Virus record (IMG/VR): IMGVR_UViG_3300027736_001781
Coordinates: 1 to 49,516 of that record
Direction: 5' to 3' (one strand)
Length of the DNA stretch: 49,516 nucleotides
Source: a virus
Shown here: positions 3,243 to 10,613 of the stretch, in pieces
How the letters are laid out: every line of letters starts with the position of its first letter
Position numbering within the stretch: position 1 is the stretch's first letter
Program-made: the position numbers and the translations under genes
The notes under the pieces: model-generated
Databases searched by the model: none
Told to the model about the DNA's origin: nothing
Seen by the model: the letters and a program-made list of their open reading frames with translations, nothing else

Positions 3243-3574
3243 TTTATACTTCTATTCCAAAACGTAAACCCCAAAAGCCAAATGCTAAACAGCGCGAACT
3301 TGCTGCTGAATGGGATGCTCTTGTAAAAAAATATGCTCCTACTAAAAAGCTTAGCGGCGCTATAGTGTCTTCACTTATAGTTTCAAAACCATTTGTTCGT
3401 GAAACACCTAAGATTCCAAGTTTGAATACTGGCGATGGAGTTGCTTCTTCAAAGCCACGTATGCAATACACTGGCGATAAAATGTTAGGTATTGGTACTC
3501 TACATAAATCAAATGCAGTACCAGTGTTTAGCACTGATGAAGCTAAAGAAATGGCGCGCATGCGCCGAGGTTAA
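3239..3574 (+). CDS. Conserved phage hypothetical protein
   Basis: The 111-residue basic protein opens with a Lys/Pro-rich segment (PKRKPQKPNAKQRELAAEWDALVKKYAP). It ends in a conserved-looking block, PSLNTGDGVA ... YTGDKMLGIGTLHKSNAVPVFSTDEAKEMARMRR. That last block (GIGTLHKSNAVPVF followed by a helix ending MRR) is, from memory, widespread in aquatic tailed phages of several types, including podoviruses, with no known function. There is no membrane segment. Its ATG overlaps the stop of the previous gene by 4 nt, so it belongs to the same operon and may be coupled in translation. Confidence 0.7.
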   Translation: MIYTSIPKRKPQKPNAKQRELAAEWDALVKKYAPTKKLSGAIVSSLIVSKPFVRETPKIPSLNTGDGVASSKPRMQYTGDKMLGIGTLHKSNAVPVFSTDEAKEMARMRRG

Positions 3575-5530: not shown

Positions 5531-5752
5531 ATGGGCCGCACTATTAATAAGTATGACGAAGAGGATCGTCGCAAAATAAAACCTGTAAAACATTCTAGAA
5601 ACATTCCCGGAAGAGGAATGCGCGTTATAAATAGTTGGTCAGAGGAAAATGATTACGATGAGTATGAAGATTCTGATGATTTAGATTATGAATATAACGA
5701 CAATACTTCGCAAACACAACGTAAACAAAAAGGAAATACAAATGGATATTAA
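5531..5752 (+). CDS. Hypothetical acidic-tailed protein between gp59 and gp32
   Basis: The ATG at 5531 (MGRTINKYDEEDRRK) is preferred over an in-frame TTG at 5519. The 73-residue protein has a basic N-terminal half (DEEDRRKIKPVKHSRNIPGRGMRVIN) and a very acidic, Tyr-rich middle (ENDYDEYEDSDDLDYEYND). The HSRNIPGRGM element is, from memory, shared with small proteins next to gp32 in other aquatic T4-like phages. The split charge could suit an interaction with gp32 or gp59, but this is inference. It overlaps the gp32 start by 11 nt. Confidence 0.6.
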   Translation: MGRTINKYDEEDRRKIKPVKHSRNIPGRGMRVINSWSEENDYDEYEDSDDLDYEYNDNTSQTQRKQKGNTNGY

Positions 5753-6641
5753 TACACTTCGTAAAATGCGTAATCAAGACTTCGGCAAAATCTCTGCTGA
5801 ATTCGACAAGATTGCTAATCCGCAATCTGAAACCAAATCCTACCAAGACGATCGCTTTTGGAAGCTAGAAGCTGACAAAGCTGGTAATGGTACGGCAACT
5901 ATTCGATTCCTCCCACGTGCAGAAGGTGATGAACTACCTTGGGTTAAAATTTTCTCGCACGGTTTCCAAGGTCCTACTGGAAAATGGTACATCGAAAACT
6001 CTCTAACTACAATTGGCGAAAATGATCCAGTTGGCGAACTAAATTCACGTTTGTGGAACACTGGTTCTGACGCTGACAAGGAAACTGCTCGTAAGCAAAA
6101 GCGTAAGCTTTCTTATTTCGCAAATGTTCTTATTGTTTCTGATTCTAAGCATCCAGAAAATGAAGGTAAGGTTAAACTCTTTAAGTTTGGCAAGAAAATC
6201 TTTGATAAGCTTATGGATAAAGCGAAGCCTACATTTGAAGATGAAACTCCAGTGAATGTTTTTGATCTTTGGGAAGGTGCTGATTTTAAACTTCGTATGC
6301 GTAAGGTTGATGGCTATCCTAACTACGATCAATCTGCATTCCAAGAACCTAGTGCTGTCGCTGATAGCGAAGACGAAATTTTGGCTATTGTCAATAGTCA
6401 ATATAAGCTTAGCGAATTCTTAGATCGTAAGAACTTTAAAACTTATGAAGAACTTTCACGTAAAATGGTGTCTGTTTTGAATAGTGAGATGGCAGCTCCA
6501 TCTCCAAGTGCAGCATCTATGTCAAATGATGATGAGTACGTACCTCCAGCACGTACTCAATTGAAAGCTGTCAAAATCGCAACTGGTGGCGAAGACGATG
6601 AGGCAATGAGTTACTTTAAAAAGATTGCTATGGAAGAGTGA
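5742..6641 (+). CDS. 32: gp32 single-stranded DNA-binding protein
   Basis: The true start is the ATG at 5742 (MDINTLRKMRN), with AAGGAAA upstream; the frame extends further 5' but lacks a site there. The 299-residue product (T4: 301) follows gp32: a basic N-terminal cooperativity segment, the core motif GNGTATIRFLPRAEGDELPW ... FSHGFQGPTGKWYIEN ... KLSYFANVLIVSDSKHPENEGKV ... FGKKIFDKL ... DLWEGADFKLRM, then an acidic C-terminal tail (GGEDDEAMSYFKKIAMEE). The T4 zinc site (His64, Cys77, Cys87, Cys90) is not conserved: the His in SHGF stays, but the three Cys positions read ENS and NDPVGELN, and the whole protein lacks cysteine. It coats ssDNA in replication and recombination. A strong terminator follows. 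Confidence 0.95.
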   Translation: MDINTLRKMRNQDFGKISAEFDKIANPQSETKSYQDDRFWKLEADKAGNGTATIRFLPRAEGDELPWVKIFSHGFQGPTGKWYIENSLTTIGENDPVGELNSRLWNTGSDADKETARKQKRKLSYFANVLIVSDSKHPENEGKVKLFKFGKKIFDKLMDKAKPTFEDETPVNVFDLWEGADFKLRMRKVDGYPNYDQSAFQEPSAVADSEDEILAIVNSQYKLSEFLDRKNFKTYEELSRKMVSVLNSEMAAPSPSAASMSNDDEYVPPARTQLKAVKIATGGEDDEAMSYFKKIAMEE

Positions 6642-6671
6642 TGTATCTACGTAAGCGTGGATAGATAGTGG

Positions 6672-6696
6672 GGAGGACTTAGGTCCTCCTTTTTTT
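6672..6696 (+). terminator. Rho-independent terminator after gp32
   Basis: GGAGGAC (6672-6678) pairs with GTCCTCC (6683-6689), loop TTAG, followed by seven T. It closes the gp33-gp59-gp32 operon. The T-run overlaps the stop codon of the convergent gp29 gene. A weaker hairpin (ATCTACG/CGTGGAT, about 6646-6663) precedes it. Confidence 0.9.
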
Positions 6697-8545
6697 ATCC
6701 GTAGATAAAGCGAGATGAAGTGTATCGTTGGAACCCACTATCATTATTACGAACTGGCGTTGGCATTGTAATATTTTGCTTGCTATTGCTAACATTGGTT
6801 GGAGCATTAACAACTACTGCTCCAGATGATTGAGTAGGTTTACCTGCAGCTTCAGCATTAGATGCTGATTTTTCAGTTACAACATTTGCTGCTTTTGCAG
6901 CAGGAGCTTCAGGAGAAGAAGAAGATTTAGCATCAGATCCAAATGGTCTAAATGGGCCAAATGAAACTTCTTTATCTATCACAGGAATTTTAAAAGCGAC
7001 CTTTGGAATCTCAAATCCAGTGACAAAATTTACAACACTATCTTTAATGGCTTTAAAGAACGCACCAATAGGTTCCATAAATTGCGTGAATGGCTGTTTG
7101 ATATATTTGTCAAATGATTCACCTAGCAATTGCGCAAATGCAGTTACTGGTTGAATGATGTAGTCGTTGACGAATCCAGTGATAGTGTTTTCAATACCAT
7201 CTTTAATAGTGTTAAATAATTCACCAATAGGTTCCATAAATTCTGTAAATGGAGTCTTAATATATTTGTCAAATGCTTCACCTAGCATTTCCGTAAATGC
7301 AGTTACTGGCTGAATAATATACTCGTCAACAAATTCGCTTACACTATCAACAATGTTTTGAACTGTGCTAGCATCAAATAGTCCAAATGTTAAGAATTCT
7401 AAAACTCCGCCAAGACCTTTGATTAGAGCTTGACCAATATCGCCGGTTTCAGCAAATTCTTTCCAACCATCCATAATACCATTTACTAATGACCCAATAA
7501 TCATAGTGATTGCAAATGCTTTACCCAAGAATTTAAGTATGTTTTTAGGACTAAACATAGTCTTAATCGCACTCATAAATCCTTCACCGAGGAAACTCAT
7601 AATTGAATCTAAGAAACCACCACTACTTTTGGGTTTTTGTTCTTTCAAGGGTTCAGCGCCAGTTTCTGAGCGAGTGTTTTCTTCAATCTTAGCTAATAGT
7701 TCAATCTGATGATCTAATGCACGTTGAGATTCTAAATTTGATTCTTGACTTGTGTCTTTCGATTCTTCTTTCTTCTTAGAAAGTTTAACAGTTTCTTTTT
7801 TGCCCTTTTCTTCACTGATATTAGAAGCACGTTTAGCAGTTGGCTCTTCTTTTTTATCATTGCCGACATCTGAAAATCTCTTATCGACTTTTTTCAGTTT
7901 TGATGTTAAGTCTTCACGGGTATCAAGCAATCCAGTCTTTTTAATTTGATCTTCGCCCCAACCGCCTTCTTTCATTTTTTCAATCTTACTCTCATTCTTT
8001 TTATTTTCTTTAAGAAGAGATTGCGATTGTTCGAATTGTTTACCAGCAGCTTTAGCACGAGTCTTTTCTTCTGGAGATCCCTTAACAAAGGTGTTCTTCG
8101 TTACTTCTAATTGTTGTTGAACAAAAGTTTTTTTAGCTTCAGCACGATCTGCTATCTTACTTAGCATTCCAGCACCACCACGTTTTGCTATTCCAGTTTG
8201 ATCTAAGAATCCACGAGCTGTAAAGAAATCTTTAGCCTTTTCTTTCTTTGCTTGGAACTTATCTCCAATAGTATCATACGTCTTTATCTTATCAGCTTTT
8301 TGTGTTACTTCTTCAGCTTTCTTACCACGAATTTCTTTGTCGCGTTTAGTTAATCCCTTGTTTAGATCTTTCATCTCTTTATAGATTTTCTCCATATTGG
8401 AGTTCATCATATTGTCTTGTTTATTGAGATCTCGATCTAACTTAGCTTGTTCTGCAACTTGGCTTAATTGGATTAATTTATCTTGTGTCAGATTCTTCTC
8501 GACACTTTCAAGAATAGCTGTTTGTTTTTCTAAGATTGCTTTCAT
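6695..8545 (-). CDS. 29: gp29-like tape measure / tail length determinator
   Basis: The 616-residue protein (T4 gp29: 590) is the last gene of the minus-strand tail operon. Residues 1-300 are highly charged and coiled-coil-like with many Lys/Glu. Residues about 310-362 hold hydrophobic helices (FLGKAFAITMIIGSLVNGIMDG). Residues about 405-510 hold two copies of a 53-residue repeat (DEYIIQPVTAF...DKYIKTPFTEFMEPIGELF). The C terminus (GAVVVNAPTNVSNSKQNITMP ... SRFIYG) is the end typical of tape measures in aquatic T4-like phages. Known role: spans the tail tube and sets its length. It follows gp26 and a gp51-like gene, the same order as chaperone then tape measure in siphophages; its ATG overlaps the gp51-like stop (ATGA). 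Confidence 0.8.
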   Translation of the reverse strand: MKAILEKQTAILESVEKNLTQDKLIQLSQVAEQAKLDRDLNKQDNMMNSNMEKIYKEMKDLNKGLTKRDKEIRGKKAEEVTQKADKIKTYDTIGDKFQAKKEKAKDFFTARGFLDQTGIAKRGGAGMLSKIADRAEAKKTFVQQQLEVTKNTFVKGSPEEKTRAKAAGKQFEQSQSLLKENKKNESKIEKMKEGGWGEDQIKKTGLLDTREDLTSKLKKVDKRFSDVGNDKKEEPTAKRASNISEEKGKKETVKLSKKKEESKDTSQESNLESQRALDHQIELLAKIEENTRSETGAEPLKEQKPKSSGGFLDSIMSFLGEGFMSAIKTMFSPKNILKFLGKAFAITMIIGSLVNGIMDGWKEFAETGDIGQALIKGLGGVLEFLTFGLFDASTVQNIVDSVSEFVDEYIIQPVTAFTEMLGEAFDKYIKTPFTEFMEPIGELFNTIKDGIENTITGFVNDYIIQPVTAFAQLLGESFDKYIKQPFTQFMEPIGAFFKAIKDSVVNFVTGFEIPKVAFKIPVIDKEVSFGPFRPFGSDAKSSSSPEAPAAKAANVVTEKSASNAEAAGKPTQSSGAVVVNAPTNVSNSKQNITMPTPVRNNDSGFQRYTSSRFIYG

Positions 8546-8685
8546 GCTTTCTGTCTCTCTAATCGTTGTTTTTCTTCTTCAAGATAATTAATGAGCATAG
8601 CAACGTATATTTCACGTTCAAAGGGAATCATATTCTCAAGGTCTGCTAAATTATATTTATGATATTGCATTAAAGCAAAATTCAT
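8542..8685 (-). CDS. 51: gp51-like small protein / frameshifted tail chaperone extension
   Basis: This short gene of 47 residues reads MNFALMQYHKYNLADLENMI, then PFEREIYVAMLINYLEEEKQ and a basic end; I found it by hand on the minus strand. The pattern (MNFAxMQxHxYxLxDLExMxPFERxIYVxxLxxYLEEE) resembles the small gp51-like proteins of aquatic T4-like phages. T4 gp51 is the baseplate hub assembly catalyst. The frame stays open upstream through the gp26 stop region and is -1 relative to gp26, so it may also be made as a gp26 fusion by slippage at the T8 run (8733-8726). Its stop overlaps the gp29 start. Confidence 0.7.
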   Translation of the reverse strand: MNFALMQYHKYNLADLENMIPFEREIYVAMLINYLEEEKQRLERQKA

Positions 8686-8723
8686 TTTATAGTAATTAGC
8701 TAAATTTTCATGACAAAAATTAA

Positions 8724-8736
8724 TTAAAAAAAACTG
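8724..8736 (-). promoter_or_regulatory. Putative -1 ribosomal frameshift site at end of gp26
   Basis: On the minus strand the last gp26 codons are AGT TTT TTT TAA, an eight-T homopolymer (8733-8726). A -1 slip on T TTT TTT passes the stop and enters a frame open without interruption from 8733 through the gp51-like gene to 8542. In the slipped frame the link is about 15 residues (F-F-L-I-N-F-C-H-E-N-L-A-N-Y-Y-K) before the gp51-like Met. I did not identify a stimulatory downstream structure. Confidence 0.45.
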
Positions 8737-9437
8737 TCGAGCCCTTGTATTGTATGTTTATGATGGTGATTACAAACAGGGCAATCAAACTCTATATCTT
8801 TCTCAAGCTTTGGCATAGTTTCAAAGAACTTTTGAACTTTAACGAATTGTTCTTGAGTAAGGTTATTGATAAAATCTTCAAGCTCTTCTTTAGTTTGCTC
8901 ATGCGCTGGATATACATTTTCTTCGTCAAAGATAGAATCTATACATTCTATTACTACATCAAACACTAAAGCTACATCTCCTTTAGGAACATCTTTCATT
9001 TTATTAATAATAGATAATCCTGGATACTTCATTTTGATACCAACGTCATTAAATAGCTTAATAATATTAGTATGTTCTTCGTTAAACTTAACTTCTAATG
9101 TAGTTAAATCAATATTAACATTCATCTTAGCTTTAGGATCATTGCATTCTAAACAACTAAAAATTAGTTCAGACATTTCGCCAACAGATCTTGCTCTTAA
9201 CTGAGTAAAGATATATTCAATGTCAAACATTGCTAATTTCTCTACATCCAATTTATTAGATGTACATGCTTTAATGACATTCTTTAACGTGTCAAGCATA
9301 ACACTTTGATCTTCGCTCTGTTGAGCAATTAACAATGCTTTTTCTTCTTTAACAAGGAAAGGTCTAAATTTAACCTTTTGCTTTGAAGATGGGACAGTCA
9401 ATTCATATGTCGGAGTTGACATTACTGGTAAAGCCAT
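8724..9437 (-). CDS. 26: gp26-like baseplate hub protein / tail assembly chaperone
   Basis: The 237-residue protein (T4 gp26: 208) belongs to the T4 gp26 baseplate hub family: N-terminal TYELTVPSSKQKVKFRPFLVKEEKALLIAQQSED, middle RARSVGEMSELIFSCLECNDPKAKMNVNIDL, a long acidic helical region, and C-terminal CPVCNHHHKHTIQGLDSFF. Cysteines in CLEC and CPVC with nearby His suggest a zinc site. The family is needed for hub assembly and contacts gp29. The gene ends in AGT followed by eight T and AA, a possible -1 slippage site into the gp51-like frame. gp16 ends just upstream (9439). Confidence 0.85.
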   Translation of the reverse strand: MALPVMSTPTYELTVPSSKQKVKFRPFLVKEEKALLIAQQSEDQSVMLDTLKNVIKACTSNKLDVEKLAMFDIEYIFTQLRARSVGEMSELIFSCLECNDPKAKMNVNIDLTTLEVKFNEEHTNIIKLFNDVGIKMKYPGLSIINKMKDVPKGDVALVFDVVIECIDSIFDEENVYPAHEQTKEELEDFINNLTQEQFVKVQKFFETMPKLEKDIEFDCPVCNHHHKHTIQGLDSFF

Positions 9438-9438
9438 A

Positions 9439-9846
9439 TTATTTTCCTTTTCTCAAATCATTTAACATTTTACTAAGTTCATTGGTGCTACCAACAAATA
9501 TAGCGTTATTAGTAACACTCTTTCTTTCCTCTTTTGTTGGAGCTTCAATAGATTGTTTTTTCTTATGAAGATCTAGCAATTGAGTATTGATATCCGAAAG
9601 GTGTTTCATTAAACCACCTACAACCTCGAATGCACGAGGGTGTTCACTAGCCTTAGCTACTTCAAGTGCATGATATAACGCATCTTGCCCTTGCTGTAAA
9701 ATTGTATGAAGATTAGAACGAGTAGTTTCATAATCATCATCCAATTGATCATTCTTAATTTGTCGTGCCGCCACTTGAGGAAATACCTCTGTATTACCAA
9801 TCGGTGTCACGTCAAAGACCTGACTCAATTTATCATCTATAATCAC
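9439..9846 (-). CDS. 16: Small terminase subunit gp16
   Basis: The 135-residue protein starts at a GTG (9846) overlapping the stop of the preceding gene (GTGA). It matches the T4 gp16 pattern: QLDDDYETTRSNLHTILQQGQDALYHALEVAKASEHPRAFEVVGGLMKHLSDINTQLLDLHKKKQSI ... NNAIFVGSTNELSKMLNDL. The T4 parallels are the LEDDY start, the ADSPRHMEVFATLM helix and the NATVFMGSPTELM end. It recognises phage DNA and regulates the gp17 motor-nuclease during packaging. gp17 is not in this window, so the two terminase genes are split here, with gp16 inserted in a tail operon. Confidence 0.85.
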   Translation of the reverse strand: MIIDDKLSQVFDVTPIGNTEVFPQVAARQIKNDQLDDDYETTRSNLHTILQQGQDALYHALEVAKASEHPRAFEVVGGLMKHLSDINTQLLDLHKKKQSIEAPTKEERKSVTNNAIFVGSTNELSKMLNDLRKGK

Positions 9847-10613
9847 ACGAAAATTCCTCCTAAACCTAAGTCTTCGCCCATATTTTCTATAGAGTCGATT
9901 GACTTAACGCCATAACTAAAATCGTAATTATTAAATTCCCCTTGGAATTCGTCGAAATTATTGAAGTACTGATCTGGTATAGAGAATGCATCCATATTTG
10001 CCATTGAAGTATTTTCAGTTGATTCATACATTTGCTGTTCTATTCCTATCATAGAAGTGCTACCAATAGCTGAAGGACTATAGGTTTGACTAACTTCATA
10101 ATATTGATAAACCATTGTTACTTGCATTTTCATTATATCTTTAGAGGCATAATCTAATTGAATTGGCGCAATAATTTTTGGATATGCTTTGAATAAAGTA
10201 ACATTATATTTTGGAGAATCCATACTGTCTTGCACTGTAATTTCAAACTTATTAGTAGTGTATTGATCTGGATAATTAAAATCGCGAGTAGTAGAATCTT
10301 GCACTATTGCTATCCACGCATCAAATAATCTTTTCACGTTCATATCTACGTCAACGTAAAAACTCAATTGAATTGGTTCATATAATTTTTCGTATGGTAT
10401 TTCTCTAAATTCACCATAAGATCTTACTTGGTTTGTTGAAAAAGATATTCCTGGAATCTGCGCCTGATCACAGAACAAAAGAATCTTATTCATGTTCGAT
10501 CTAGCAGGTTCGTAATTGCTCAACGCTGTAGGAAGAGTTAACATTACCGAGAAGAATGACGTCTTCGCCATTCCTATCTTTACGTTTGATATGAATTCGT
10601 TTAATTTACTCAT
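9843..10613 (-). CDS. 54: gp54-like tail-tube-fold protein (tube initiator)
   Basis: The 256-residue protein has the tail-tube fold pattern of T4 gp54/gp19: KILLFCDQAQIPGISFSTNQVRSYGEFREIPYEKLYEPIQLSFYVDVDMNVKRLFDAWIAIVQD ... NKFEITVQDSMDSPKYNVTLFKAYPKIIAPIQLDYASKDIMKMQVTMVYQYYE. T4 gp54 has the same order (PENRLSYETDW ... LDPLVISFRMDSEACNYRAMQDWVNSVQD ... VMFTGCIPISVSAPELSYD ... FDVTFAYRVM). gp54 tops the baseplate and starts tube polymerisation. The C-terminal 70 residues are acidic and Gly/Asn-rich. Its ATG overlaps the stop of the gene before it. The gp19 tube protein itself is an alternative but is less likely given the operon. Confidence 0.65.
   Translation of the reverse strand: MSKLNEFISNVKIGMAKTSFFSVMLTLPTALSNYEPARSNMNKILLFCDQAQIPGISFSTNQVRSYGEFREIPYEKLYEPIQLSFYVDVDMNVKRLFDAWIAIVQDSTTRDFNYPDQYTTNKFEITVQDSMDSPKYNVTLFKAYPKIIAPIQLDYASKDIMKMQVTMVYQYYEVSQTYSPSAIGSTSMIGIEQQMYESTENTSMANMDAFSIPDQYFNNFDEFQGEFNNYDFSYGVKSIDSIENMGEDLGLGGIFV

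Follow-up and report, generated by a model that had tools for sequence, protein, structure and literature searches.

gp26 and an Overlapping gp51-like Frame in a Lake-Water T4 Relative: A Probable Tail Assembly Chaperone Gene Read in Two Ways

The gp26 Locus

The window, i.e., the whole 49,516-nucleotide stretch of DNA that was analysed (IMG/VR record IMGVR_UViG_3300027736_001781), comes from a lake-water relative of T4. A gp26-type gene on its minus strand ends in a run of T and is overlapped by a second reading frame, which in turn overlaps a long gene:

8724-9437, minus strand: gene of a gp26-type protein, 237 aa (PF12322 T4_baseplate, phrog_150), with ATG at 9437 and stop TAA at 8726-8724
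8742-8746, minus strand: AAGGG, resembling a Shine-Dalgarno (SD) sequence, 8 nt upstream of the heptamer; a possible frameshift stimulator, weak here (-4.2 kcal/mol)
8727-8733, minus strand: slippery heptamer T_TTT_TTT, made up of the final T of AGT and both Phe codons, adjoining the stop TAA (8726-8724)
8542-8727, minus strand: -1 frame past the slip, 61 codons (LINFCHENLANYYKMNFAL...) and a stop at 8544-8542; matches to phrog_634 (mini-gp51) and to the C-terminus of T4 gp51
8542-8685, minus strand: mini-gp51 from its first ATG, the form that gene-calling software would report; without an SD sequence, the conserved peptide beginning upstream
6695-8545, minus strand: putative tape measure protein, 616 aa, assigned from position and relatives; 4-nt overlap with the -1 stop (ATGA)

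In frame 0, the gp26 gene ends AGT (8735-8733) TTT TTT TAA, and the run comprises eight T (8733-8726), the final one being the first base of the stop. From 8733, the -1 frame is open until the TGA at 8544-8542, and a ribosome that slipped back by one base would read TTT TTT TTA ATT AAT TTT TGT CAT and onward, with 61 codons between TTT TTT and the TGA. The product would be FF followed by LINFCHENLANYYKMNFALMQYHKYNLADLENMIPFEREIYVAMLINYLEEEKQRLERQKA, and the predicted gp26-51 fusion would be 298 aa long. The earlier note on this DNA had described gp26 as ending in eight T at its stop and the -1 frame as open between 8733 and 8542, and its coordinates and frame were right for the minus strand. 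No ATG occurs in the -1 frame until 8685, 16 codons beyond the slip, and that one lacks an SD sequence; the ATG of the 616-aa gene (8545-8543) overlaps the -1 stop.

The gp26 protein matches PF12322 over its full length (E = 1.3e-63, residues 9-237), and all 41 aligned gp26 relatives match that family too. For the -1 product, phrog_634 ("baseplate hub assembly catalyst", mini-gp51) is a match at E = 2.8e-25. A further match of this product, to the end of phrog_150, the gp26 profile, suggests that gp26 and mini-gp51 are fused in some phrog_150 members. The window gp26 has two zinc-ribbon-like CxxC motifs; C95, C219 and C222 (gene at 8724-9437, minus strand) are invariant among 41 relatives, and its matches to zinc-ribbon profiles are weak. 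These cysteine motifs suggest a zinc-binding insert in the chaperones. In the window, a gp16-like small terminase subunit gene (9439-9846, minus strand; PF11053, phrog_445, E = 1e-40) separates the tail tube gene (9843-10613) from gp26, while in phiM19 and K575 the tail tube gene directly precedes gp26.

The earlier note had the pair "followed at once by the tape measure", a claim that position and relatives support, although the 616-aa protein of the window itself had no significant tape-measure match in the profile search. Its equivalents in HTVC008M, K575 and phiM19 match PHROG tape-measure families (8e-12, 1e-6 and 2e-5, respectively), and a long, fast-evolving ORF follows the -1 frame in nearly all loci whose downstream region was covered. 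The gene at 6695-8545 (minus strand) diverges fast, although relatives keep both its position and its size; tblastn with the putative tape measure gave only one weak match among 50,697 phage records. A terminator-like hairpin (GGGGAGGACTTAGGTCCTCCTTTTTTT, 6660-6695, plus strand) lies between this gene and the convergent gp32 gene (5688-6641, plus strand).

Conservation of the Slip Site and the -1 Frame

Loci were collected from IMG/VR by gp26 and by the -1 peptide, and named phages were added; a scan of viral contigs seeded from a vibriophage found nothing. The peptide-seeded set was selected by the very peptide in question, which makes the gp26-seeded set the less biased one; both agree. A mini-gp51 was present in the -1 frame in 108/108 distinct IMG/VR loci, and T_TTT_TTT or T_TTT_TTC occurred in phase at the gp26 end in 160 of 161 loci, the lone exception being phiM9 with T_TTT_TTG. 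Elsewhere in the same gp26 genes, T_TTT_TTY was found once in 12,895 other codon positions, and just one of 48 other FF dipeptides was encoded by a slippery sequence. The distance from the heptamer to the gp26 stop varies (0, 1, 2 or 8 codons); the heptamer is constant. Under each gene's own codon usage, the log10 probability was about -5.8 for T as the third base before FF and -6.5 for TTT as the first Phe codon, figures computed over 21 lineages at no more than 60% identity that are still related, and hence to be taken as guides. With the -1 frame in every distinct locus, the motif in all but one and its near-absence elsewhere in gp26, the -1 layout is not due to chance. Two marks of tail chaperones of the lambda G/GT kind are found here, namely a conserved slippery sequence in the correct phase, and a second frame at -1 that overlaps the end of the first gene and is open without a start of its own.

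Selection on the -1 Peptide

The stretch from the slip to the first ATG usually spans 16-21 codons and has the conserved peptide L-I-N-L-C-H-E-S-L-x-N-Y-Y, and 93 of 110 -1 ORFs have no ATG in their first 16 codons. Among those 93, nearest-pair substitutions at -1 codon positions 1, 2 and 3 numbered 32, 25 and 93 (p 7e-13), and the codon changes in this pre-ATG stretch comprised 75 synonymous and 49 nonsynonymous ones. By these substitution patterns, the -1 extension is under protein-level selection upstream of any ATG and appears to be read as protein from the slip onward.

GenBank records list mini-gp51 separately as a "baseplate hub assembly catalyst", and a separate mini-gene, translated by internal initiation or by stop-start reinitiation near the gp26 stop with no fusion formed, was weighed as an alternative. 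In S-CRM01, K575, Ps15 and a few others, an ATG overlaps the gp26 stop, and reinitiation would be possible there. However, the first ATG of the -1 frame has a mean SD pairing of -0.4 kcal/mol, versus -6.6 for gp26 starts, and the stretch before it is selected as protein even though most of the ORFs have no early ATG; on these two grounds reinitiation was rejected. A separate mini-gene would also leave the invariant T_TTT_TTY and its synonymous choice unexplained, and T4-type phages have the equivalent segment solely at the end of a full fusion. We consider this alternative improbable.

Signals around the Slip Site

Many gp26 relatives have an SD-like sequence upstream of the heptamer, most often GGAGGG, and its pairing has a sharp optimum at a gap of 7-9 nt between the 8-mer and the heptamer. 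The mean best pairing energy was -7.6 kcal/mol, versus -4.8 in synonymous re-draws of the same peptide, and the element was stronger than its synonymous controls in 47 of 55 representatives (Wilcoxon p 2e-9, with rows that are not fully independent). In the -1 frameshift of E. coli dnaX, an SD-like sequence lies about 10 nt upstream of the slippery heptamer A_AAA_AAG and a hairpin lies 3' of it. A conserved stem-loop or pseudoknot 3' of the gp26 slip was not found in the 55 representatives (mean z -0.5, z below -2 in only 8/55), and 3' RNA structure was rejected as a stimulator on these figures. This negative result and the weak SD-like element of the window itself both count against the main reading.

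The same fusion could be made by transcriptional slippage on the T-run, giving mRNAs that differ by one base, and the eight T of the window and the 7-8 T of 26/55 representative loci would suit it. The other 29/55 have only TTTTTT followed by C, a run of six being too short for efficient polymerase slippage, and transcriptional slippage was rejected for that reason; ribosomal slippage is also favoured by the codon phase and by the dnaX-like spacing of the SD-like element. Its probability is, if anything, slightly lower still than that of a separate mini-gene. As for a chance T-run beside a decayed or misassembled fusion gene, the genome is AT-rich and T-runs are common, but conservation refutes this reading: 160/161 relatives, isolates and independently assembled sequences alike, have the identical layout, and the -1 peptide is under selection. 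Its probability is negligible.

The Two-Gene Form of T4

T2 and Aes508 transcribe genes 26 and 51 divergently. Residues 1-201 of T4-type gp51 match PF12322 (E=4e-55), the protein being a whole gp26-like domain plus a mini-gp51 tail. It is co-linear with the fusion made in silico by frameshifting (fusion 23-280, gp51 15-245), whereas the alignment with T4 gp26 ends at 236. The mini-gp51 HMM detects the tails of T4-type gp51 (E 2.5e-10 to 0.02), and the C-terminal segment of T4 gp51 itself matches phrog_634. T2 gp26 still ends ...KEFFELL, its T-run lost. The earlier note held that the layout would tie T4 gp26 and gp51 to the chaperone family of lambda-like and other long-tailed phages. T4 gp51 is homologous to the fusion, but the T4 pair are divergent genes with no frameshift.

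A tree built on the shared domain has T4 gp26 as one group (99/99) and T4 gp51 as another (100/100), and the two together are split from all frameshift-form sequences (branch 95/87; the tree is unrooted and has long branches). These relationships are best explained by a frameshifting ancestor whose gene was duplicated once in the T4 line. The frameshift form is kept in vibriophage K575, which is probably KVP40-like to judge by its size and host, and in the Straboviridae phage Ahp1, which places the switch to two genes inside the Straboviridae.

Variants in the Ackermannviridae

In ViI-like Ackermannviridae the gp26 gene is retained, as is a -1 frame that is both open and conserved; the slip sequence is ATTTTC (CTTTTTC in Kuja). 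After gp26 in our ViI-like loci L183-L200 (e.g., L193, about 3280-3460), the conserved -1 frame reads FHLIFEIDLLSYFVMCDELK...MPWHLDLLTE..., and an invariant ATTTTCATYTAA stands in place of the T6-T8 run. In Klebsiella phage May, the -1 frame after gp26 is unannotated. T7 gene 10 uses GGTTTTC, which makes a slip at ATTTTC plausible in the ViI-like phages, and by that analogy a frameshift in the Ackermannviridae is plausible, if less certain. The poorer slip site that goes with the retained -1 frame in these phages counts against our main reading.

For T4-like phages outside the T4 sublineage, we lean towards a compound frameshift signal (an rRNA-pairing SD-like element at dnaX spacing upstream of a poly-T heptamer, with no conserved 3' structure) and towards regarding it as ancestral, lost in T4 through the one duplication that gave gp26 and gp51, with the Ackermannviridae having moved to the weaker ATTTTC and kept the -1 frame.

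Comparison of Structures

The models of gp26 (pLDDT 85) and T4-type gp51 (pLDDT 83) have the same order of elements, with extra C-terminal helices in gp51, and against viral models gp26 matches T4-type gp26 and proteins named gp51. Among the 50 matches of the gp26 model listed from the PDB, the best probabilities belonged to 2OB9_A, the HK97 chaperone (0.28; 4.0 A over 61 columns), and to 3FGX, counted as a phage tail assembly chaperone (PMC9603447; chain A, 0.18; 3.1 A over 45). Chains 2ob9_A, 2ob9_B and 3fgx_A came within the top 31 of 350,542, yet with E = 2.4-3.6. Neither a significant sequence link nor a fold link was found between gp26 and lambda G or HK97 gp13; the T4-type gp51 model had no fold match in the PDB, with no solved tail assembly chaperone in its top 50. 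Both results count against the main reading. PDB sequence searches gave no homologue for gp26 and none that was meaningful for gp51, and no Pfam tail-chaperone family was among those shown for the 41 gp26 members. Of the kinship of gp26 with known chaperones that the earlier note had proposed to seek in predicted structure, what is left is a modelled likeness to HK97 gp13 (2OB9), which is suggestive and not proof; homology to lambda G was not found. The assignment of gp26 to the chaperones, for which the case is strong, is by function and layout.

A Gene Read in Two Ways

Taken together, gp26 and the mini-gp51 frame are very probably one tail assembly chaperone gene that is read in two ways by a programmed -1 frameshift. 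The layout, its conservation, the selection on the slip codons and on the extension, and the homology of T4 gp51 to the fusion are demonstrated; from them we infer the slippage, its rate and the chaperone roles. Most ribosomes would stop after TTT TTT and give gp26, the 237-aa, G-like short form, and a minority would slip one base back on T_TTT_TTT and give the 298-aa, GT-like gp26-51 fusion. In many relatives the slip may be aided by the SD-like sequence 7-9 nt upstream pairing with 16S rRNA. If the roles resemble those in lambda, the tape measure protein of the next gene would be coated or folded by the gp26 part, and tail-tube subunits would be recruited by the 61-aa extension; the virion need not contain either form. 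T4 and its close kin would make the same two products after the duplication from two genes, gp26 as the short form and gp51 as the gp26-like domain with the tail.

Relation to Known Systems

Atkins et al. (2016) described G-T frameshifting as conserved in long-tailed phages "except T4", and T4 is listed as the exception in PMC5009743. T4 gp51 is required, yet is not in the particle (PMC3004832), and Sullivan et al. (2010) noted that the gp51 of cyanophages and marine vibriophages is without the first ~200 residues. The earlier note could not say whether its proposal had been described for T4-like phages, and it had been. Vladimirov, Gautam and Davidson (2022; Virology 566:9-15) identified the tail assembly chaperones of T4-like phages, as reported by PMC10885494 and PMC12846349, which credit them with poly-T slippery sites in the short-form gene and state that some T4-like phages have a short gene and a separate, longer fusion gene. 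As those papers describe it, this is the same system as gp26/mini-gp51 of the window. The G/GT layout of the earlier note is right, its slippery T-run and open -1 frame being real and deeply conserved and the extension apparently read as protein, and the core of the finding is mostly known because, on the citing papers' account, Vladimirov et al. (2022) had identified these genes. Beyond that account, the present analysis is broader in coverage, points to a likely stimulator and puts the forms in evolutionary order. The literature searched on T4-like tail chaperones, a search that covered work other than Vladimirov et al. (2022), nowhere mentions the SD-like element or the -1 frame of the Ackermannviridae. 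For a whole group of phages from the sea and from fresh water, the result corrects annotation that either omits gp51 or gives it as a separate "baseplate hub assembly catalyst". It is ordinary in kind, well supported and useful for annotation.

With dnaX, many gp26 relatives share an SD-like element upstream of the slip heptamer at similar spacing; dnaX slips on A_AAA_AAG with its 3' hairpin, whereas the gp26 loci slip on poly-T with no consistent 3' structure. The E/E' genes of the contractile-tailed phage P2 reportedly slip on T_TTT_TTG (Christie 2002), and the slip of phiM9 is exactly that heptamer. Lambda G/GT (Levin 1993; Xu 2004; reviewed in PMC5009743) has a slip site of its own in contrast to the poly-T of gp26, and gp26 differs from lambda G in being longer (237 aa) and zinc-ribbon-like, with no detectable sequence homology. 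Bacillus phage 0305phi8-36, for which PMC2147016 reports no frameshifting relatives, differs in that respect, yet it has paralogous short and long chaperones made without a frameshift, as T4 has in gp26 and gp51.
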